Of a stretch of 34,268 nt of DNA, positions 9,825 to 28,130 are shown piece after piece. The stretch lies in NCBI GenBank assembly GCA_040754395.1, contig JBFMCL010000031.1, forward strand, positions 1 through 34,268. Reading direction: 5' to 3'. Source of the stretch: Nitrospirota bacterium. GTDB lineage: Bacteria > Nitrospirota > Thermodesulfovibrionia > Thermodesulfovibrionales > SM23-35. Under the pieces are notes generated by a model. It saw only the letters and a program-made list of their open reading frames with translations, searched no databases and had not been told where the DNA came from. Position 1 is the first letter of the stretch. Each line of letters begins with the position of its first letter. Both the position numbers and the translations under genes were made by a program.

Positions 9825-10352
9825 AATACAATTGACCCTTGTGTCCGTTCTCAAATGCTGTCAGGGGAAGTGTTTGTTGCACATCATGCCGTCCCGCTGA
9901 TTGCAAAAGGTCAGGTAAAAAGTGTCCTCGAAGTATTCCACCGTTCGCAGCTTTTCCCTGATCCGGAATGGCTGGAATTTTTTGAGGTTCTTGCTGCTCA
10001 GGGCGCCATAGCGATCGATAATGCCTCCGAAGAGTTTCAGATAATGTGCAAGCACCCCGTCTATGCCTATAACATGCTGTCTCAGATATTCTTTCTGCGT
10101 CAGGCTCTGAATATTCCTTACTGCCACCATGAGAGATGGGATGGCACCGGATATCCAAGAGGGCTGCGGGGTGAGCATATACCGCTTGAGGCCCGAATAT
10201 TCGCGGTAGTCGATGTGTGGGATGCACTCAGGTCTGACCGCCCGTACCGTAAAGCGTGGTCAAATGAAAAGGCACAGGGATATATCAATGAGAACAGGGG
10301 AAAACACTTTGACCCTGTTGTCGTCGATGCGTTCCTGAAGATGATTGCGTAG
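9825..10352 (+). pseudogene. Remnant of a GAF-HD-GYP phosphodiesterase gene
   Basis: The open stretch holds two joined pieces. The first (to about 10020) is the end of a GAF domain: HHAVPLIAKGQVKSVLEVFHR through AAQGAIAIDNA. The second begins at once with EEFQIMCKHPVYAYNMLS and gives the second half of an HD-GYP domain, including HHERWDGTGYPRGL and VVDVWDALRSDRPYRKAW. The part normally between them, with the HDIGK metal site, is missing, as is the whole N-terminus. GAF-like homology extends upstream of the first ATG (9855) back to a stop at 9822. It cannot hydrolyse cyclic-di-GMP. The frame is still open, so a short protein from the ATG at 9855 is possible. Confidence 0.75.
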
Positions 10353-10436: not shown

Positions 10437-11744
10437 ATGGCAAAAAAAGTATACCTGAAGGATTCGGAAACATTAAAAGTACTCAAAAAAAAAGTTGATG
10501 CCCTCAAAATACTTTCTGAGATATCCGCAATAATATCTTCCACATTTGATCTCGATGAACTCCTGACCATCGTCATGGAGAAGGCCAAAGGTGTCATGAA
10601 CGCTGAAGCCTGTTCGATTCTTCTGTACAACAAGGAGACAAAAAAACTCGAGTTTGAAGTAGCCCTATGCCGGGAAAAAGCAACGTCAGAAATATTGAAG
10701 AAAAAAATCACGCTTGACCTCGGCCAGGGGATTGCGGGATGGGTTGCAGAAAAAAGAGAGATTCTTATTATCGGAGACGTGAGAAAGGACAGGAGGTTCT
10801 TTCAGGAAGCTGACAACATAACAGGATTCGTAACGAAGAGCATCATCGCTGCACCCCTTATAGGCAGGAGAGGTCTCATAGGAGTTGCAGAAATCATCAA
10901 CCCGAAAAAAAAGGAGTATGACCTCGAAGTATTGCAGATACTCATCAGGCATTTTGCAATCGCGATAGAGAATGCGTTTTTTTACAAAGATGCCATTGAA
11001 AGGGAAAGGCTGAAACAGGAACTCGAGATTGCGTCATCATTGCAGAAAAGCTTTCTCCCTGACTCTCCGTCTTTCTCAAAAGCACTTATCACGGTTTCTG
11101 CTGTGAACATCCCTGCAAAACAGGTTGGAGGAGACCTTTACGATTACCTTGACCTTTCAGGACACAGAATGGGGGTATTTATCGGTGATGTCTCGGGGAA
11201 AGGAGTAACCGCTGCACTGTTTATGGCAAAGATAATAAGTGACTTCCGGTATGCTGCCGGCGCAGAAAAAACTCCTGATGCGGTGATGAACCGCCTGAAT
11301 CTCCTGTTTTCACGGGCACCCCGAGGAATGTTTCTGACCGCAACGTATCTGATTATTGATGCGTTTGCTGGCATACTTGATATTTCGGTGGCGGGACACC
11401 CTCCATGCCTGTGGATTACCGGAAATAACGTTGAGGCGTTATCTGTCGATTCAGGTCCCCCTTTAGGAATCATTCCTGAAAAATACCTTTCTGAACGTGT
11501 TACCCTCTCAAGGGGTGACAGGATTATTCTGCTTACCGACGGGGTCTTTGAGGCAAGGAATAAAAAGGGACACATGATCGGATTTGGTAACCTTGTGAAG
11601 TTTGTGAAAGATCATGTGCGTGAGGGTCATCTTCCCCAAAAAATTGCTGATTATGTCAGAGATTTTTCGAAGTCTGTTGAAATATCCGATGACCTGACTA
11701 TTGTAGAGGTTGGGTATGGGTATGAAGGAGCACAGCATGGATAA
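10437..11744 (+). CDS. GAF-domain PP2C (RsbU/SpoIIE-type) serine phosphatase
   Basis: 435 residues, apparently cytoplasmic. A GAF sensor domain occupies about 25-185 (LTIVMEKAKGVMNAEACSIL, GQGIAGWVAEKREILII). A short helical linker (ELEIASSLQKSFLP) leads into the SpoIIE/PPM phosphatase domain. Metal-binding motifs are intact: VGGDLYD, GDVSGKGVTAALFMA, AGHPP, LLTDGVFEARN and ISDDLTI. In partner-switching systems such enzymes dephosphorylate an RsbV-type STAS protein in response to a signal sensed by the GAF domain. The anti-sigma-like kinase and STAS genes follow directly. No good ribosome binding site is visible at the ATG. Confidence 0.92.
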   Translation: MAKKVYLKDSETLKVLKKKVDALKILSEISAIISSTFDLDELLTIVMEKAKGVMNAEACSILLYNKETKKLEFEVALCREKATSEILKKKITLDLGQGIAGWVAEKREILIIGDVRKDRRFFQEADNITGFVTKSIIAAPLIGRRGLIGVAEIINPKKKEYDLEVLQILIRHFAIAIENAFFYKDAIERERLKQELEIASSLQKSFLPDSPSFSKALITVSAVNIPAKQVGGDLYDYLDLSGHRMGVFIGDVSGKGVTAALFMAKIISDFRYAAGAEKTPDAVMNRLNLLFSRAPRGMFLTATYLIIDAFAGILDISVAGHPPCLWITGNNVEALSVDSGPPLGIIPEKYLSERVTLSRGDRIILLTDGVFEARNKKGHMIGFGNLVKFVKDHVREGHLPQKIADYVRDFSKSVEISDDLTIVEVGYGYEGAQHG

Positions 11745-11765
11745 CGCCTATGAATGCAGGATGAT

Positions 11766-12185
11766 ATGATGAGAGATTCCGCGGTCATTACCGTGCCGTC
11801 ACATCCCAGATACCTTGCAGTAATCAGAGCTGTGACAGGAAAAATGGGAGAATTATGCGGGATTGATGAAAATACCACCGAGGACATAAAACTCGCTGTG
11901 GATGAGGCATGCACAAATGTTATCAAGCATGCATACAGGGGGGACGTTTCAAGAAAGATTGTTATAAAATACAGAATAACCCGGAAGGCATTCAGGGTTG
12001 CCATAGAGGATAACGGGGTCAGAGCGCACGAGGACGTATTAAAAGGCAGGAACCTGAATACCATACGGCCCGGAGGACTCGGCATACATCTGATAAAAAG
12101 AGTTTTTGATGTCCTTGCGTTCGACGAAAAGAAAAAGATCGGCAACCGTCTGATTCTTGTGAAATACCTGAAAGGGGAAAAATGA
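11766..12185 (+). CDS. RsbW-type serine kinase / anti-sigma-factor-like ATPase
   Basis: About 139 residues of the HATPase_c fold. The N-box IKLAVDEACTNVIKHAY holds the catalytic glutamate and metal-binding asparagine, EDNGV is the G1 box and GGLGIHLIK the G2 box. RsbW-type proteins phosphorylate an STAS partner and may sequester a sigma factor or other target. Possible starts are ATG at 11754, 11766 and 11769; I prefer 11766 because AGGA lies just upstream. It follows the phosphatase gene closely and overlaps the STAS gene by four bases. No sigma factor gene is nearby, so the controlled target may be something else. Confidence 0.88.
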   Translation: MMRDSAVITVPSHPRYLAVIRAVTGKMGELCGIDENTTEDIKLAVDEACTNVIKHAYRGDVSRKIVIKYRITRKAFRVAIEDNGVRAHEDVLKGRNLNTIRPGGLGIHLIKRVFDVLAFDEKKKIGNRLILVKYLKGEK

Positions 12186-12511
12186 ACATTCATATCGGAG
12201 ACTGCAGGGGTGGAAAAGTGGTCGCAATATCTGGAGAAATAGATATGTATTCGTCGCCTGAACTCAGGGAACAGATGATGAACCTCATCGGTCAGAGAAT
12301 ATCAAATATGCTTATTGATTTCAGGCAGGTATCGTACATAGACAGTTCAGGCATTGCCACCTTTGTTGAGGGACTTAAATCCATGAAGAATTACGGCGGC
12401 AGACTCCGGTTTTTCGGGATACCTCAGGGGATTATGGAGATATTCAGTTTTTCGAAGCTGGACAGGGTTTTTGAGATATACGGGAATATTGACGATGCCA
12501 TCAATAGCTGA
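12182..12511 (+). CDS. STAS-domain anti-anti-sigma factor (RsbV-like), possible MlaB-like subunit
   Basis: 109 residues, one STAS domain. The phospho-acceptor motif is VSYIDSSGIATF; by analogy with SpoIIAA the modified residue is the second serine, S56. The start overlaps the kinase stop (ATGA). The end overlaps the mlaE start by 17 bases, so the protein is made together with both the kinase and the permease. In E. coli the small STAS protein MlaB binds the MlaF ATPase and is needed for MlaFEDB activity. This protein could therefore act as an anti-anti-sigma factor, as an MlaB-like subunit, or both. The first role is what the motif suggests; the second is inferred from position. Confidence 0.9.
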   Translation: MNIHIGDCRGGKVVAISGEIDMYSSPELREQMMNLIGQRISNMLIDFRQVSYIDSSGIATFVEGLKSMKNYGGRLRFFGIPQGIMEIFSFSKLDRVFEIYGNIDDAINS

Positions 12512-13301
12512 AACCCTGTGCAGCTTTGCCGGCAAAAAAGCAAAACCCTTTCTTAAGGAAGTCCACGATGCATCGAAGATCATTAACGATATTTTTTACT
12601 GGGCGGTTATTTCTCCTCTCAGGGGAAGGCCCGTCCGATTCCGTGCGGCCGTATCGGAGATGGTAAAGGCAGGATACAACTCTGTGCCCATAGTTGCCGT
12701 AATTTCATTGTTTATCGGAATAATCCTTGCGTTTCAGTCAGCCTACCAGCTGAAAAAGGTAGGAGCGCTGATCTATGTCGCCAATCTTATAGGGGTATCA
12801 ATAACGAGAGAACTCGGACCTATAATCACGGCCATTATCGTATCAGGCAGGAGTGGTTCGGCTTTTGCTGCGGAGATCGGATCCATGAAAGCGGCTGAAG
12901 AAATCGATGCGCTTATCAGCATGGGTATAAATCCTGTCAGATTCATTGTCGTCCCGAAGCTCATCGCGCTCATGATAATGGTTCCTGCCCTCACAATTTT
13001 TTCCGATATCATCGGTATGCTCGGAGGGTTCATTCTTTCTGTCTCGGTTCTGGAAATACATCCTGCAAGTTATTTCCAGCAAACTGTCAATGCACTGCTA
13101 GTAAAGGATGTAATGACCGGACTGGTCAAAGCATGGGCGTTTGGCATACTGATTACTATTGTCGGATCATACCAGGGATTCAAGGTGACCGGAGGGGCAG
13201 AGGAGGTCGGAAGGAGGACAACAGCAGCAGTTGTTGCGTCCATTTTTCTGGTAATCGTATTTGACCTGTTTTTTACGGCACTTTTTTATTATTTCACATA
13301 A
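12495..13301 (+). CDS. mlaE: MlaE-type lipid ABC transporter permease (system 1)
   Basis: 268 residues with about five or six membrane segments. It carries the MlaE/YrbE signature: FIGIILAFQSAYQLKKVGA, TRELGPIITAIIVSGRSGSAFAAEIGSM split around LISMGINPVRFIVVPK, and a conserved GSYQGFKVTGGAEEVGRRTTAAVV near the end. MlaE forms the inner-membrane channel of MCE systems that move phospholipids across the envelope. The ATG at 12495 is preferred over an in-frame TTG at 12471; it overlaps the STAS gene by 17 bases. It is followed by mlaF, mlaD and a lipoprotein gene. Confidence 0.92.
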   Translation: MPSIAETLCSFAGKKAKPFLKEVHDASKIINDIFYWAVISPLRGRPVRFRAAVSEMVKAGYNSVPIVAVISLFIGIILAFQSAYQLKKVGALIYVANLIGVSITRELGPIITAIIVSGRSGSAFAAEIGSMKAAEEIDALISMGINPVRFIVVPKLIALMIMVPALTIFSDIIGMLGGFILSVSVLEIHPASYFQQTVNALLVKDVMTGLVKAWAFGILITIVGSYQGFKVTGGAEEVGRRTTAAVVASIFLVIVFDLFFTALFYYFT

Positions 13302-13347
13302 CGGCATCGTTTTTTTCCGATGATGTGCTGACACATGCAGGAGTAAG

Positions 13348-14133
13348 ATGGAAAATGCAATAGAAGTGACCAAGCTTTCTTCCTATTATGGAGAGCGGGA
13401 GATCCTGAAAAGAATCTCCTTTGTCATACCGAAAAACATGACGACGGTCATACTCGGGGGAAGCGGATGCGGCAAAAGCACACTCCTTAAGCACCTGATC
13501 GGTCTGCTGAAACCTGCCAGCGGGAGTATTCTCATACAGGGAACAGACATTACGCAGCTGGATGAAGAATCAATGAATGAGGTGCGGAAGAAAATGGGAA
13601 TACTGTTTCAGGGTGCGGCACTGCTCAATTCCCTCAATTTGCTGGACAATATCGCGCTTCCCGTGAGGGAGCATACCAGGATTAAAGAATCAACCATAGG
13701 GATTATGGTTCGCATGAAGCTGGATCTCGTCGGTCTGTCGGGTTTTGAAGGGTTCTATCCTTCTCAGTTGTCGGGAGGGATGAAAAAAAGGGCAGGACTG
13801 GCAAGGGCAATCGCACTTGATCCTGAACTGCTGTTTTTTGATGAGCCGTCTGCAGGGCTGGATCCTATCACCGCGGCAGGGCTTGATGACCTTATCGTAA
13901 GTCTTAAGAATGTGTTTAAAATGACTATAGTCGTAGTCACTCATGAACTGCCAAGTGTATTCACGATCGCAGATTATGTTATCATGCTGGATGCCGGAGA
14001 AGTGATATTTTCAGGATCTCTCGATGAGCTGAAGATGTCGGATCACCCCAGGATAAGAATGTTTCTCGAGAGAAAACCGGAGACCGGCACATATGTTCCA
14101 GAAGACTATTTCAACATCATTGCAGGCGAATAA
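13348..14133 (+). CDS. mlaF: MlaF-type ABC transporter ATPase (system 1)
   Basis: 261 residues. It has Walker A GGSGCGKST (37-45), Q-loop near GILFQGAAL, ABC signature LSGGMKKRAGLARAIA (from 141), Walker B plus glutamate in LLFFDEPSAGLDP (from 161) and the switch histidine in VVTHELPS. The LSGGMKKR wording and the GAALLNSLNLLDNI stretch are typical of MlaF. It powers MlaE-MlaD lipid transport from the cytoplasmic side. AGGAG lies six to ten bases before the ATG. The C-terminal tail (RKPETGTYVPEDYFNIIAGE) may contact the complex. Confidence 0.93.
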   Translation: MENAIEVTKLSSYYGEREILKRISFVIPKNMTTVILGGSGCGKSTLLKHLIGLLKPASGSILIQGTDITQLDEESMNEVRKKMGILFQGAALLNSLNLLDNIALPVREHTRIKESTIGIMVRMKLDLVGLSGFEGFYPSQLSGGMKKRAGLARAIALDPELLFFDEPSAGLDPITAAGLDDLIVSLKNVFKMTIVVVTHELPSVFTIADYVIMLDAGEVIFSGSLDELKMSDHPRIRMFLERKPETGTYVPEDYFNIIAGE

Positions 14134-14138
14134 CCCAC

Positions 14139-15089
14139 TTGTTCACCTGCTTTGCAGGAAAAAAGCATGATGCCAATGCAAAAGGCAGCGCATTGAAAGA
14201 AGAAATCAAGGCCGGAATAGTAATCATATCGTCTCTTCTGATACTCAGCGGAATCATTATTATGATTGGCGGAGGACAGTTCTTTGAGAAATCCGACGTT
14301 TACTATGTGAAGGTAATGAACGCAGCCGGGCTTGAAACCGGTGCGCAGGTCAGGCTGGGGGGAGTCAGGGTTGGCAGGGTATTAAAAATTACGGCACCCG
14401 ATCAGCCCGGGGAAGCGGTATCCATACAGATCGGTCTGAAACCCGGCACGGTACTGTACAAAGGAACCAGGGCGCTGATATCTCAGGTTGGGTTTGTCGG
14501 TGACATATACCTTCTTCTCGCTGTTGAAAACACAGAAAACGAAAAGATCTCGGTCGGTGAAGTCATTCCTTCTGAAGAAAAGGTCCAGTTCGATGTACTC
14601 ATGGCAAGAATCGACAGCCTTTCCCATTCAGTTGATGCTCTGATAAAGGATGTGGACAAAATCTTCAGTGACAAGAATCTGAAAGGCATCGAGACTCTCA
14701 TCGGCAACACAAATACCGCAATAGTTTCAGGATCGACAAACCTCGATAAGGTTGCTGCAAGCCTCAAGACAACAACCGACAAACTTGCAAGCGTGCTGGG
14801 CGAAATAGAGGAAATTGTGAAAGTCAATAAAGGCGATGTTTCCGGATTGATCAGAAAAGCCAGAGAAGATGTCGAGAAAGCTGGCGAGATGATCAGGAGC
14901 TTTGAATCAACGGCAAAGTCTGTGGATAAGACCTCGAAATCACTTGACCGTGTTATCGATTACCAGTCAAGGAATATCGAAAATCTCATCAATACGATGA
15001 CAAGCACTACAGAAGAACTGCAGGAACTTCTCCGGGAAATAAAGCACAAGCCATGGAGCATCATTTACAAGGAAAAAAGAGGTGAGTGA
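14139..15089 (+). CDS. mlaD: MlaD-type MCE-domain protein (system 1)
   Basis: Up to 316 residues. One N-terminal membrane helix (about 26-46) is followed by an MCE domain (YYVKVMNAAGLETGAQVRLGGVRVGRV, then VGFVGDIYLLL). A long helical region of about 150 residues carries repeated D/K-rich stretches (TTDKLASVLGEIEEIVKVN, SVDKTSKSLDRVIDY). The MCE domains form a hexameric lipid-binding ring in the periplasm, and the helical tail may extend it into a tunnel. The only starts are rare codons: TTG 14139, five bases after mlaF, or TTG 14193, which has AAAAGG upstream and begins LKEEIKAGIVI, a usual start for this family. No barrel is seen at the C-terminus. Confidence 0.88.
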   Translation: MFTCFAGKKHDANAKGSALKEEIKAGIVIISSLLILSGIIIMIGGGQFFEKSDVYYVKVMNAAGLETGAQVRLGGVRVGRVLKITAPDQPGEAVSIQIGLKPGTVLYKGTRALISQVGFVGDIYLLLAVENTENEKISVGEVIPSEEKVQFDVLMARIDSLSHSVDALIKDVDKIFSDKNLKGIETLIGNTNTAIVSGSTNLDKVAASLKTTTDKLASVLGEIEEIVKVNKGDVSGLIRKAREDVEKAGEMIRSFESTAKSVDKTSKSLDRVIDYQSRNIENLINTMTSTTEELQELLREIKHKPWSIIYKEKRGE

Positions 15090-15090
15090 G

Positions 15091-15696
15091 ATGCAGCGAT
15101 TTTTTGTTGTCATTTTGTCAGTCTTCCTGATTGCAGCGTGTACCATGCCGGTTACGAAAATTTACAGTATATATGTCGATACTTCAGCAAAAAAAGAGAG
15201 AGTGAAAGAGAGGGGATTCACATCGAATCCACCTGCGGAACGATCCGTTGCAATTTTAGTCGATGTCCCGAGGTATCTCTCCCAGCCATACATCGCCTAT
15301 CGCACGTCACCTTATCAGCTTGAAATTTCGCGGTACTCAAAATGGGAGGCTCCACCGGGTGACATGGTAAGGGAATTATTCAGGGAAAAGCTTTTCCTGT
15401 CAGGATATTTTCATGAAGTGAGAGCTTCCAGCGTGGTTCCGGAAGGGTTTTATGCACTTGAGATAAAAATGAAAAAGTTCGAACGGTTTGATGATGCTGA
15501 CGGATCATTCGGAGACCTTCTGTTAGAAATAAAAATGACCTCTCCGGACAACAGGGAGATATACTATGGAACCATGGCAGGACATGTTCGTCTCGCTGAC
15601 AAGTCATTTCTGAGCCTTGCCATGGGATTAAGCAAAGCGCTTTCTGATTCCATTGATGGGGTAATCGATGATATTGCCGGTGTTTTGAGTAACTGA
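15091..15696 (+). CDS. ABC-type transport auxiliary lipoprotein (PqiC/DUF330-like)
   Basis: 202 residues with a signal peptide and the lipobox IAAC. The body resembles the ABC_trans_aux (PqiC-type) family: YSIYVDTS, SVAILVDVPRYLSQPYIAYRTSPYQLEISRYSKWEAPPGDMVRELFREKLF and a C-terminal helix ending in DDIAGVLSN. Such lipoproteins sit at the outer membrane and receive or dock MCE protein tunnels. The start at 15091 is set by AGAGGTGAG eight bases upstream and lies one base after the mlaD stop. It is the last gene of the operon and converges with alaS. No clear intrinsic terminator is seen between them. Confidence 0.85.
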   Translation: MQRFFVVILSVFLIAACTMPVTKIYSIYVDTSAKKERVKERGFTSNPPAERSVAILVDVPRYLSQPYIAYRTSPYQLEISRYSKWEAPPGDMVRELFREKLFLSGYFHEVRASSVVPEGFYALEIKMKKFERFDDADGSFGDLLLEIKMTSPDNREIYYGTMAGHVRLADKSFLSLAMGLSKALSDSIDGVIDDIAGVLSN

Positions 15697-23760: not shown

Positions 23761-23960
23761 GCACGCAGGAGCTGATCATCGTTCTGATAATCATTGTTGT
23801 TCTTTTCGGCGCTACAAGGCTTCCGCAGATAGGTAGCGGTATCGGACAGGCGATCAAGAATTTCAAGAAGAGCGTTAGTGAAGGTGAAGAGATCGATGTA
23901 ACACCCGAAAAAGACAATAAACAGGAAACGAAAAAAGAAAAAATAAAAGAAGGTGACTAG
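23748..23960 (+). CDS. tatA: Sec-independent translocase subunit TatA
   Basis: 70 residues. A short N-terminal membrane helix is followed by the FGATRLPQIGSGIGQAIKNFKKS hinge and amphipathic helix, seen here as VLFGATRLPQ then GSGIGQAIKNFK. A charged lysine/glutamate tail follows. TatA polymerises to form the pore for folded proteins with twin-arginine signals. GAGAGGGGGGTAAGAC lies before the ATG. It starts within the end of mobA and its end overlaps alr by eight bases. TatC is not in the window. Confidence 0.94.
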   Translation: MFGLGTQELIIVLIIIVVLFGATRLPQIGSGIGQAIKNFKKSVSEGEEIDVTPEKDNKQETKKEKIKEGD

Positions 23961-25089
23961 AGGCCCTATCGCAGAGGTTGATCTGTCTGCTATAGCGCAT
24001 AACCTTCAAGCAATACGAAAAATTGTAAAAAACCGGCCTGTTATCGCCGTTGTCAAGGCTGACGCGTATGGACACGGCGCGGTAGAAGTTTCAAAAAGAC
24101 TGCTCAAAGAAGGAGTCACTTGCCTTGCTGTAGCATTTACCGGAGAAGCGAGAGAATTGAGGGATGCGGGTATCAGCATTCCGGTGATAGTGCTGTTCGA
24201 CAGGAATGATATAAACGCGTTCTTTGAATTTCATCTGATACCGGTTATTTCTGATGTAGAGACTGCGCTGTCTCTGTCAAATGAGGCAAAAAGAAGAAAC
24301 ACGGCCATAAATGTCCATATAAAAATCGATACCGGCATGGGAAGGCTCGGATTACACGGGAAGAAAGTCACTGAAAATATTTTGAATATCGCGTCAATGC
24401 CGGGCATTCAGGTTGAGGGATTGCTGAGCCATTTCTCTGAAGCTGATCTTGCTGACAGATCATTTGCAGACCAGCAGATTACCCTTTTCAGGCAGGTGCT
24501 CGAGTCTGTATCCAGAAAAATAAAAGGAAAAATATGTGCACATATAGCCAACAGCGCGGCAGTCATGACCCTGGAAGAGTCACATTTCGACGCAGTCAGG
24601 CCCGGCCTAATGCTTTACGGCTATTCTCCTTTAAAGGCTTATAGATTCGGTTCACCAGAAAACCTTCCTCACGTATCAGAACTTTTTCCTGCGTTGGTTG
24701 TGAAGGCAAAAATACTCTCTATAAGAAATGTACCCTCTGGAACCCCGATAAGCTACGGAAGGACTTTTGTGACGAAAAGGCAGAGCAGGATAGGGGTTGT
24801 TTCAATAGGCTATGCTGACGGATACAGCAGGCTTTTTTCTAATAATGCAGAAATGCTTGTTCTCGGAAAAAAGGCGCCGGTCGCCGGAAGGGTCTGCATG
24901 GATCTCACCATGATCGATCTTACGGATATACCGGAGGCACAGGAAAACGATGATGCTGTTATCATCGGACGGCAGGGAAGCCAGTCAATCACCGCGGATG
25001 AACTTGCCGAAAAAGCCAATACTATATCCTATGAAATTCTTACGTCTCTGGGAAGCCGTTCCCGTAAAGTCCATGCTGAGAATCATTGA
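23953..25089 (+). CDS. alr: Alanine racemase
   Basis: 378 residues. The PLP lysine is K35 in VVKADAYGHGA, and the second catalytic residue is the tyrosine in ISYGRTF. DTGMGRLGL, GLLSHFSEAD and GYADGYSR also match the family. It interconverts L- and D-alanine for peptidoglycan. The start is a GTG inside the tatA end; the conserved opening PIAEVDLSAIAHN supports it. The end overlaps the second mlaE by 17 bases. Confidence 0.96.
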   Translation: MTRGPIAEVDLSAIAHNLQAIRKIVKNRPVIAVVKADAYGHGAVEVSKRLLKEGVTCLAVAFTGEARELRDAGISIPVIVLFDRNDINAFFEFHLIPVISDVETALSLSNEAKRRNTAINVHIKIDTGMGRLGLHGKKVTENILNIASMPGIQVEGLLSHFSEADLADRSFADQQITLFRQVLESVSRKIKGKICAHIANSAAVMTLEESHFDAVRPGLMLYGYSPLKAYRFGSPENLPHVSELFPALVVKAKILSIRNVPSGTPISYGRTFVTKRQSRIGVVSIGYADGYSRLFSNNAEMLVLGKKAPVAGRVCMDLTMIDLTDIPEAQENDDAVIIGRQGSQSITADELAEKANTISYEILTSLGSRSRKVHAENH

Positions 25090-25846
25090 ACTCATAGGAA
25101 GCACTGTAATACGTTTTGCCGAAGAACTTGGAAAGATCCTGATCCTTCTTTTCTTGTCCCTGCAACAGCTTTTCCTGCCACCCTATGAGGTAAGGAATAC
25201 CTTCAAGCAGATGCTCGAAATCGGGGTGCGTTCCCTGCCAGTCGTACTCATAACCGCAATATTTACCGGTATGGTCTTTGCCCTCCAGACGTTTACCGGG
25301 TTCAAAAGATTCGGTGCCGAAGCGGTTGTTGGTACTGTTGTTGCTCTTTCCATGACAAGGGAACTGGGACCGGTTCTCACAGGCCTTATTGTCGCCGGAA
25401 GGGCAGGCGCCGCCATGGCTGCAGAATTGGGCACCATGAGAGTCACGGAACAGATTGATGCACTCGAGACACTCGCGACAAATCCGATTAAGTACCTGAT
25501 AATTCCGAGGTTCATTGCAGGGATTCTGATGATGCCTGCGCTTGCTGCAGTTGCAGACATTACCGGTATAATAGGCGGTTATTTTGTTACGGTAGGATTG
25601 TTTGATACGAGCTCGATAGTCTACTGGAAAAGAACGTGGGATTATCTGGAAGTCAGTGATATCCTTAACGGCATGATAAAGGCAGGTTTTTTTGGAGCCA
25701 GCATCTCACTGATAAGCTGTTACAAGGGATTCTATACAAGAGGAGGCGCCGAGGGTGTCGGGAAGGCAACGACAGGCGCAGTTGTATTGTCGTCAATGAC
25801 AATACTCATATCCGACTATTTTCTGTCAGCATGGTTATTCAATTAA
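25073..25846 (+). CDS. mlaE: MlaE-type lipid ABC transporter permease (system 2)
   Basis: 257 residues from the ATG at 25073, beginning MLRIIELIGSTVIRF. Family marks are FTGMVFALQTFTGFKRFGAE, TRELGPVLTGLIVAGRAGAAMAAELGTM (read in two pieces), EQIDALETLATNPIKYLIIPR and SCYKGFYTRGGAEGVGKATT. It is a paralogue of the permease at 12495-13301. In-frame starts at 25031 and upstream would overlap alr much further and are less likely. It forms the inner-membrane core with the next two genes. The ribosome binding site is weak, so coupling to alr is probable. Confidence 0.92.
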   Translation: MLRIIELIGSTVIRFAEELGKILILLFLSLQQLFLPPYEVRNTFKQMLEIGVRSLPVVLITAIFTGMVFALQTFTGFKRFGAEAVVGTVVALSMTRELGPVLTGLIVAGRAGAAMAAELGTMRVTEQIDALETLATNPIKYLIIPRFIAGILMMPALAAVADITGIIGGYFVTVGLFDTSSIVYWKRTWDYLEVSDILNGMIKAGFFGASISLISCYKGFYTRGGAEGVGKATTGAVVLSSMTILISDYFLSAWLFN

Positions 25847-25888
25847 GGGCAGAATGCATACCAGAACCATAAAGGGAAAAAGCGGGCA

Positions 25889-26668
25889 ATGATCGAGATC
25901 GTGAATCTCCACAAGGCGTTCGGGAACAAACACGTGCTCAATGGTGTCGACCTGAAGATAGAAACCGGCGAAAGTATAGTAGTCATCGGAGGGAGCGGTT
26001 CCGGAAAAAGCGTTCTCCTTAAACACATCATTGGTATCCTGAAACCTGATGAAGGGCAGGTGTTCATAGACGGGGTTGATATAACAGATCTCAAGGAGAA
26101 TGAACTCTATGAAGTAAGAAAAAAATTTGGTATGCTTTTTCAGATGGCAGCCCTGTTTGATTCGCTTACTGTATGGGAAAATGTGGGATTTGCGCTTATT
26201 AGGCAGAAAAAAATGCATTTGCGCGAGATAAGGGAGATTGTAGCAGAAAAGCTACGCTCTGTCGGACTCTCCGGTGTTGAAGACCTGATGCCGTCAGAGC
26301 TGTCCGGAGGCATGAAAAAAAGGGTTGGTCTTGCAAGGGCAATAGCGAACGAACCGGAAATACTTCTCTATGATGAACCTACTACCGGACTGGACCCTAT
26401 CATGGCAGATGCCATAAATGATCTTATTGTCAAAATGAGAAAGAATCTCGCAGTGACATCTGTTGCAATAACTCATGATATGTACAGCGCATACAAAATT
26501 GCCGACAGAATCGCCATGCTGTACGAGGGGAGAATTATTCAGGTTGGCACTCCTGATGAGATAAAGGAAACTGAAAACCCGATAGTCAGGCAGTTCATAA
26601 CCGGAAGCGCTTCGGGGCCGATTAAGATAGAAGGAGTCCATTATGAAAAAGATTTCAACAGAACTTAA
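25889..26668 (+). CDS. mlaF: MlaF-type ABC transporter ATPase (system 2)
   Basis: 259 residues. Walker A is GGSGSGKS (34-41), the Q-loop region GMLFQMAALFDSLTV, the signature LSGGMKKRVGLARAIA (from 138), Walker B ILLYDEPTTGLDP and the switch histidine in AITHDMYSAYKI. It follows mlaE by 42 bases and overlaps mlaD by 26 bases, so the three form a tightly coupled set. It is a paralogue of the ATPase at 13348-14133 and drives the same type of lipid transport. Confidence 0.93.
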   Translation: MIEIVNLHKAFGNKHVLNGVDLKIETGESIVVIGGSGSGKSVLLKHIIGILKPDEGQVFIDGVDITDLKENELYEVRKKFGMLFQMAALFDSLTVWENVGFALIRQKKMHLREIREIVAEKLRSVGLSGVEDLMPSELSGGMKKRVGLARAIANEPEILLYDEPTTGLDPIMADAINDLIVKMRKNLAVTSVAITHDMYSAYKIADRIAMLYEGRIIQVGTPDEIKETENPIVRQFITGSASGPIKIEGVHYEKDFNRT

Positions 26669-28130
26669 AGTCGGATTATTTGCTATTTTTGTCGTGGCGA
26701 TACTGGCATTTATGACTTTCAAGATAGGTGACATCGACTGGATGAAAAAAGAAGGGTATGTCGTAAATGTCTACTTCAAGAATATTGCGGGACTTGATGA
26801 GAAAACCAAGGTTAAGGTTGCGGGTGTAAATGCAGGAGTCATCGAGAAAATAGAACTTGACAAGGGCAAAGCCAAACTGACCGTCAGGATGGACAGTGAT
26901 GTCAATCTTTACAGCGATGCAAGCGCTTCAATTAAGGCAGCAGGGCTTCTGGGAGATAAATATCTCGAGATTAAAACCGGAACTCAAAAACCCTTGCTGA
27001 CAAACGGAGATACGCTGAATAATGTCATCGAGATCGTAGACCTCGACGATCTGACGCGCAATCTAACCGCTGTCTCGGAAAATATCAATACACTCGCCCA
27101 GTCGCTGAATGAGTCTTTTGCTACCGAGGAAGGAAAGGATGCAATAAAGCAAGCCGTCCTCAATCTGAAAGATATCACTGTCAGCATGAAGGAAACGATC
27201 GCGGTGAATGATCAGAAGCTGAGAACAACGCTCGACAATATCAACAATCTTGCCTCATCAGTCAATGATCTCGTGGAGAAGAACAGTGAAAAAGTTACGT
27301 CTGCTGTCAGCAATATAAAGGATTTCTCGGAAACGCTGAAAGAAGATGGCCCACAGTTCGTCGAAAGCCTGAATAAAGCTGCAAATGACCTCAGGGCGAT
27401 GGTCGAGGAAAATCGTCCTACAATAAAGAGCGCTACAGATTCCATCGACAATATCGCAAAAAAGATAGAAAAAGGCGAAGGGTCTCTTGGAAAACTGATT
27501 AAGGATGACCGCCTGTACGAATCAATAAACAAGGCTGCGGAAGGGATAGACAGAACGATTGGTGCGGTTGAGCGTTTCAGGACATTTATTACCTTCCAGT
27601 CTGAGTATCTCACGAAACCAAAGGAAGGAAAAGGATATTTTTATCTCACGCTTCAGCCAAAGCCTGACAAGTACTATATCCTTGGTGTCGTAACAGACCC
27701 TATTGGCAAGGTTACCTCAAAAGAGATCGTGCGTGTTGAGGACGGGGTAACAACACGAATTGAACAGGAAAAGACGGAGAAGAAGATCGAATTCACTGCG
27801 CAATTTGCCAAGAGGTTCGATGACCTTGCGCTGAGGATAGGCATGACAGAGAACACTTTCGGGGCTGGAGCAGATTATTTCTTCATGAATGACAAAGGGA
27901 AAATTGTCGCAGACATCTGGGATTTCTCAAACGATGAGGACGGGGCAAAAAATCCCCATGTCAGAATCGGGGTTGACTACTTCTTTTTCAAGAACCTGTT
28001 TCTGACAGCCGGAGCGGATAATATTTTCAACAAGAAATGGCGGGGAGGGTATGCAGGTGTTGGTGTGAGGTTCGAGGATGAGGACATTAAATATCTTTTC
28101 GGGACGCTGCCGAGCATTTCTGCAAAGTAA
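26643..28130 (+). CDS. mlaD: Long MlaD: MCE domain fused to a beta-barrel-like C-terminal region (system 2)
   Basis: 495 residues, far longer than E. coli MlaD (about 180). Order of parts: membrane helix (about 8-27); MCE domain (about 36-115, YFKNIAGLDEKTKVKVAGVNAG and AAGLLGDKYLEI); a helical coiled-coil-like region (about 130-310); and a final 180 residues of alternating aromatic/polar strands, such as GYFYLTLQPKPDKYYILGVV, VRIGVDYFFFKNLFLTAGAD and GGYAGVGVRF. The last part looks like an outer-membrane barrel. A fused MlaD-barrel spanning the envelope has been reported in the diderm Firmicute Veillonella; the match here is inferred from strand pattern. AAGGAG lies six bases before the ATG. 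Confidence 0.88.
   Translation: MKKISTELKVGLFAIFVVAILAFMTFKIGDIDWMKKEGYVVNVYFKNIAGLDEKTKVKVAGVNAGVIEKIELDKGKAKLTVRMDSDVNLYSDASASIKAAGLLGDKYLEIKTGTQKPLLTNGDTLNNVIEIVDLDDLTRNLTAVSENINTLAQSLNESFATEEGKDAIKQAVLNLKDITVSMKETIAVNDQKLRTTLDNINNLASSVNDLVEKNSEKVTSAVSNIKDFSETLKEDGPQFVESLNKAANDLRAMVEENRPTIKSATDSIDNIAKKIEKGEGSLGKLIKDDRLYESINKAAEGIDRTIGAVERFRTFITFQSEYLTKPKEGKGYFYLTLQPKPDKYYILGVVTDPIGKVTSKEIVRVEDGVTTRIEQEKTEKKIEFTAQFAKRFDDLALRIGMTENTFGAGADYFFMNDKGKIVADIWDFSNDEDGAKNPHVRIGVDYFFFKNLFLTAGADNIFNKKWRGGYAGVGVRFEDEDIKYLFGTLPSISAK

Follow-up and report, generated by a model that had tools for sequence, protein, structure and literature searches.

Operon organization

What does a partner-switching module, made of a phosphatase, a kinase and a STAS protein, do in front of the genes of an Mla lipid transporter? 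This question is raised by a seven-gene operon at positions 10437-15696 (+ strand) of a 34,268-nucleotide stretch of DNA from a Nitrospirota bacterium (assembly GCA_040754395.1, contig JBFMCL010000031.1), hereafter the window, which is one entire contig of a 2.98 Mb genome estimated to be 99.96% complete. Our answer, to which we give a probability of about 0.68, is that these genes specify an MCE/Mla-type phospholipid transporter together with its own partner switch, which phosphorylates the STAS subunit of the transporter, and that this subunit controls the ATPase MlaF. The cell would probably switch lipid transport on and off through the phosphorylation of one small transporter subunit.

The seven genes, all on one strand as described in the sequence-only reading, were borne out by Pfam. 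The first, U (10437-11744, 435 amino acids), encodes an RsbU-like GAF-SpoIIE(PP2C) serine phosphatase (SpoIIE, E 6.7e-43; GAF, E 3.8e-15). It is followed by W (11754-12185, 143 amino acids), an RsbW/SpoIIAB-type serine kinase (HATPase_c_2, E 5.2e-25), and by S (12182-12511, 109 amino acids), an RsbV/MlaB-like STAS protein (STAS, E 1.2e-19). Then come the permease MlaE (12495-13301, 268 amino acids; MlaE, E 7.6e-78; TIGR00056 above cut-off), the ATPase MlaF (13348-14133, 261 amino acids; ABC_tran), and an MlaD/MCE protein with a long helical C-terminus, like the long MlaD of Mpc and Veillonella (14139-15089, 316 amino acids; MlaD, PF02470, E 8e-11; TIGR00996, E 2.8e-19). The last gene (15082-15696, 204 amino acids) encodes a PqiC/MpcA-like outer-membrane lipoprotein (ABC_trans_aux, PF03886, E 1.5e-8) with a lipobox-like LIAAC in its translation. 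MlaE, MlaF and an MCE-domain MlaD are therefore found together in one operon, preceded by a PP2C phosphatase, an HATPase_c_2 kinase and a STAS antagonist whose catalytic residues and phosphosite are intact.

The genes are tightly packed, with gaps of 9 bases between U and W, 46 between mlaE and mlaF, and 5 between mlaF and mlaD, and with an 8-base overlap between mlaD and the lipoprotein gene. The coordinates also confirm the two overlaps reported earlier, 4 bases between W and S (12182-12185) and 17 bases between S and mlaE, the latter starting at ATG 12495 while the STAS stop ends at 12511; an alternative TTG start at 12471 is present in the open reading frame list.

Probable link between the STAS protein and MlaF

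To define how the STAS protein could be connected to the transporter, it was compared with the Mla system of E. coli. There, Thr52 of the STAS protein MlaB is central in the MlaF-MlaB interface, the phosphomimetic T52E substitution weakens MlaF binding, and the complex loses MlaF when MlaB is absent (PMC7367683). The T52A substitution leaves the complex in place and abolishes the ATPase activity (PMC5016091). The operon MlaF carries a C-terminal extension, YVPEDYFNIIAGE, that resembles the MlaB handshake and aligns with Tyr261, Leu265 and Leu266 of E. coli MlaF, the tail in contact with MlaB (PMC7367683), so that the STAS protein is encoded together with an MlaF bearing the MlaB-contacting extension. 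Of 69 distinct MlaFs encoded in such operons, which come from various phyla, 65 have a Tyr-x2-3-[ILV] motif within their last 20 residues. The motif is present in one of 19 same-class MlaFs from operons devoid of STAS, a group that includes the two other MlaFs of the source genome; since it was defined after the tails had been inspected, these counts are descriptive. The MlaF of Veillonella, which has no MlaB, reportedly has a shorter extension (PMC10665443), and in Brucella the STAS domain and MlaE are fused in a single protein, MpcE (PMC12436622). The MlaF tail, the translational coupling to mlaE and STAS-MlaE fusions such as MpcE argue for the STAS protein being a subunit of the transporter.

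The source genome contains two further MlaE-MlaF pairs. A second mla-type operon lies in the window (23953-28130, + strand) and encodes an alanine racemase, MlaE2, MlaF2 and a 495-amino-acid MlaD; it has no STAS gene, and its MlaF lacks the tail that grips MlaB. A third MlaE-MlaF pair is located on another contig (C27; locus L104, 4219-6158, - strand), with a long MlaE frame of 389 amino acids and an MlaF also devoid of the tail.

Phosphosite, kinase and phosphatase

By alignment, the phosphoacceptor is S55 (codon 12344-12346), the first Ser of the D54-S55-S56-G57 motif. It aligns with the SpoIIAA position occupied by Ala in structures 1tid and 1til and by Ser in 1th8. The SpoIIAA chain of 1tid and 1til is the S58A mutant. 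S55 also aligns with Thr52 of E. coli MlaB. The sequence-only reading had placed the phosphosite at S56; the residue number has to be shifted by one, according to both the SpoIIAA and the MlaB alignments. That a kinase-less MlaB lacks the phosphosite was considered as well and rejected: the position of S55 is a Thr in E. coli MlaB and a Ser in P. aeruginosa MlaB, and it does not separate the two kinds of protein.

In 66 aligned sequences, D54, S55, S56, A59, T60 and E63 are invariant, and A59, T60 and E63 are present in all 81 operon STAS proteins. In a comparison set of 40 further STAS proteins from the class, A59 was seen in one, E63 in one, and T60 did not belong to the residues commonly found. 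In the AlphaFold2 model, these three residues are carried by the same predicted helix as S55 (residues 55-69), and judging from the alignments they would fit a dedicated second partner of the STAS protein besides the kinase.

The kinase appears to be catalytically intact, residues E51, N55, D86, G88, G107, G108 and G110 being invariant in 63 sequences, and its best match in the PDB is RsbW (6m36_A, E 7e-14). The phosphatase comprises a GAF domain (38-177), a helical linker (163-206) and a PP2C domain (242-424), and it was modelled by AlphaFold2 with a predicted local distance difference test (pLDDT) score of 84.6, a long helix linking GAF to PP2C. Its metal-site motifs are GGD (232-233), GD (250-251), DG (368-369) and DD (418-419), and conservation at D233, D251, D368, D418 and D419 is 97% or higher. 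When a profile of U was compared with solved structures, its GAF domain was matched best by that of CyaB and by those of cyclic-nucleotide phosphodiesterases and of an HD-GYP protein. These matches hint at the signal of the phosphatase and are to be taken as a lead only.

Conservation of the operon across genomes

We looked at the conservation of this arrangement in two sets of genomes, nearly all of the loci coming from metagenome assemblies. When the kinase was used as a query against 200 genomes of the same class, the distribution was bimodal, with about 50 close orthologues at E ~2e-29 or better followed by weak unrelated matches. The U-W-S order was found at all 50 orthologous loci, mlaE came next in 49, and the 17-base overlap between S and mlaE was present in most of them. 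A STAS alignment compared with GTDB species genomes gave 315 relatives, of which the best 80 were read; being picked by STAS similarity, these loci show the reach of the operon and not its frequency. Among these 80, the kinase gene precedes the STAS gene in 79 (L175 begins near a contig end) and mlaE follows it in 78 (L171 stops at a contig edge, and L150 has no MlaE). Their labels cover at least eight phyla (Nitrospirota, KSB1, Nitrospinota, Calditrichota, Glassbacteria, Omnitrophota, Abyssobacteria and Tectomicrobia), and Bacteroidetes and Deltaproteobacteria appear among further labels of metagenome-assembled genomes. The adjacency of the trio with mlaE would have refuted the sequence-only reading had it been unique to the source genome; it is clearly not so, being shared by 49 of 50 loci in the class and by several phyla. 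For U, W, S, MlaE and MlaF, the matrices of distances between proteins correlate with one another (Mantel r 0.83-0.94), as expected if the unit is inherited together.

That the neighbourhood results from chance or hitch-hiking, its genes being functionally unlinked, is hardly credible: it is contradicted by a gene order that is conserved at 49 of the 50 loci from the class and recurs in many phyla, and by the 17-base overlap in most loci. Candidatus Magnetocorallium (L084/L157) carries, some 4 kb away from the operon and on the other strand, a second divergent kinase gene and a second STAS gene, which may form an extra layer of partner switching.

Sigma factors and alternative explanations

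Partner switches of this type normally act on transcription, and a classical one would offer another explanation. The kinase would sequester a sigma factor, such as an RpoD-like one, whose gene lies outside the operon, and the STAS protein would be shared by MlaF and the kinase, the transporter acting as the sensor and the sigma factor as the output, so that the state of envelope lipids is reported to transcription. The kinase and the STAS protein are indeed closest in sequence to RsbW and RsbV. Moreover, six sigma-70 region-2 proteins are encoded in the source genome, all outside the window, five of them RpoD-like and the sixth a short extracytoplasmic-function (ECF)-like frame, and the kinase might conceivably bind one of the RpoD-like proteins. 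The claim that no sigma gene is present held for the window and, as far as RpoD-like genes are concerned, for 131 related loci, but it does not extend to the whole genome. No SigB/F/G-type sigma factor passed the cut-off in the source genome, the five RpoD-like proteins scoring 115-144 bits against a SigBFG cut-off of 234.35, and no match to these five was obtained in the 131 operon loci (1.37 Mb; E 1e-4), a search that other sigma types would escape. The operon is linked to MlaE across phyla, and the switch itself is single-copy: the sole SpoIIE match of the source genome is the operon phosphatase, the sole PF01740 STAS match is the operon STAS protein, and the sole full-domain HATPase_c_2 match is the operon kinase, whereas the remaining matches are weak and, with few exceptions, fall in long histidine-kinase-type frames. 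We consider a sigma factor as the output unlikely. The five RpoD-like proteins are encoded on contigs C22, C1, C32, C39 and C6 (L188-L192), an unusual number for a genome of about 3 Mb.

Several observations weigh against a switch that acts on the transporter. The STAS protein is nearer RsbV than MlaB both by sequence and by fold. Its AlphaFold2 model is a confident STAS fold (pLDDT 95.5), and the closest structures are RsbV bound to RsbW (6m36; template modelling (TM) score 0.84-0.86), TM1442 and SpoIIAA, P. aeruginosa MlaB (7ch8) scoring lower (TM 0.69-0.76); the NCBIfam MlaB model NF033618 gave 21.0 bits against a cut-off of 90. For these reasons the protein is named here an RsbV-like STAS in the position of MlaB, whose role it probably plays too. 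The residues A59, T60 and E63 could be a lineage signature and not an interface. One genome (G061; L150/L053, on the same contig and an exception in both sets) has U-W-S without adjoining mlaE and mlaF; in this genome U is broken, and an MlaD fragment and the lipoprotein gene follow the trio, which corresponds to an operon deletion or rearrangement. Finally, four genomes of one genus keep STAS-MlaE with the DSSG motif and have no adjacent U, W or mlaF, and S55 is also found in all 40 other STAS proteins of the class. As DSSG is kept without an adjacent kinase and S55 is so widespread, conservation of the Ser is no proof of phosphorylation by itself. All four genomes encode other RsbW-like proteins; in one of them (L195, of L195-L198), a transposase gene and a DUF262-like gene, recognized by eye, lie upstream of STAS-MlaE.

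The DSSG motif kept in these four genomes and the wide occurrence of S55 also suit an explanation in which the STAS protein would serve as a constitutive structural component resembling MlaB, the co-inherited kinase and phosphatase acting on another target or mainly tuning assembly, and Ser55 serving as a structural hydroxyl, as Thr52 may do in E. coli. E. coli MlaB functions without a known kinase, and its T52A variant still binds yet the ATPase is dead (PMC5016091, PMC7367683). Such a subunit would leave unexplained the tight, ancient and catalytically intact linkage to U and W, and the source genome has one STAS match for its one RsbW-type kinase. We judge this explanation improbable, more so than a sigma factor output.

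Proposed mechanism and its meaning

Control of lipid transport by phosphorylation of the STAS subunit could operate as follows. We infer that unphosphorylated STAS would bind the MlaF dimer as MlaB does, held by the C-terminal extension of MlaF, and make the ATPase competent. The RsbW-type kinase would phosphorylate Ser55, at the centre of the predicted MlaF interface, MlaF would lose its partner and transport would be turned off; the kinase in its ADP state may also retain unphosphorylated STAS. Once its GAF domain is signalled, the GAF-PP2C phosphatase would dephosphorylate STAS and transport would resume. The STAS protein would then double as RsbV and MlaB. The direction of the switch, with phosphorylated STAS meaning transport off, is proposed by analogy with E. 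coli MlaB T52E and with SpoIIAA/RsbV. The suggestion that the switch directly controls phospholipid transport thus gains support from the MlaF tail, the coupling to mlaE, the STAS-MlaE fusions, the single-copy switch and the lack of a SigB/F/G-type sigma factor in the genome, the contact between STAS and MlaF being a predicted one.

Regulation of Mla transport and phosphorylation of MlaB are stated open questions, phosphoregulation of MlaB having been put forward as a hypothesis only (PMC7367683, PMC5016091). In the literature searched, which included RsbW together with mlaE, neither an MlaB kinase nor a partner switch inside an Mla operon was named, in agreement with the earlier statement that no described Mla system under such phospho-control was known. 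Both halves are known singly, and a partner switch within an ABC (ATP-binding cassette) lipid transporter operon across phyla is a new combination with respect to that literature. As kinase, phosphatase, substrate and transporter form one linked single-copy set, the hypothesis of MlaB phosphoregulation becomes directly testable. If it is true, partner switching would gain an ABC transporter as an output, the flow of envelope lipids could come under fast post-translational control, and there would be a reason why Mla complexes contain a STAS subunit. A wider idea, which we hold as speculative and unlikely, is that partner switching by serine phosphorylation directly gates MCE-type lipid transporters in many phyla and that this arrangement came first; proteobacterial MlaB, with its puzzling essential Thr52, would be a descendant that lost the kinase and the phosphatase.

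Surroundings of the operon

Upstream of U, two separate C-terminal pieces of a degraded sensor gene are present (9855-10352, + strand). This gene is intact in two relatives of the same family (L108 and L109), where it has about 885 codons and encodes GAF and HD domains. Downstream of the operon, alaS is located on the opposite strand. Promoter and terminator scans gave no more sites than in shuffled sequence.

Comparison with known systems

The Mpc system of Brucella (MpcE-F-D-A, a chimeric Mla-Pqi system; PMC12436622) shares with the operon MlaE, MlaF, a long MlaD (331 amino acids in Brucella, 316 here), a PqiC-like lipoprotein, the lack of MlaC in the operon and a STAS domain in the complex. 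It differs in that STAS is fused to MpcE, whereas here it is a separate RsbV-like open reading frame overlapping mlaE by 17 bases, with kinase and phosphatase genes upstream. MlaEFD of Veillonella (PMC10665443) likewise has the MlaEFD core, an elongated MlaD and no MlaC, but it has no STAS counterpart and its MlaF tail is shorter. With E. coli MlaFEDB, the operon has in common a STAS protein encoded with MlaE, MlaF and MlaD, the C-terminal extension of MlaF and a hydroxyl residue at the STAS phosphosite (PMC7367683, PMC5016091). The E. coli operon contains no kinase or phosphatase gene, none being known, and has MlaB and MlaC at its end, while the STAS protein described here is nearer RsbV.

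On the side of partner switches, the non-sigma or non-canonical systems Vibrio SypA/SypE and Bordetella BtrU/V/W also rely on phosphorylation of a STAS protein, and what they control is not a cognate SigB; none of their described outputs is an ABC transporter, and the review makes no mention of MlaB (PMC8256260). The B. subtilis RsbU/RsbV/RsbW and SpoIIE/SpoIIAA/SpoIIAB switches provide the nearest folds and sequences, with the same PP2C phosphatase, HATPase_c_2 kinase and phosphorylatable STAS protein. Contrary to them, the operon has no sigma gene, carries the invariant A59, T60 and E63 beside the phosphosite, and likely has an ABC transporter as its output.

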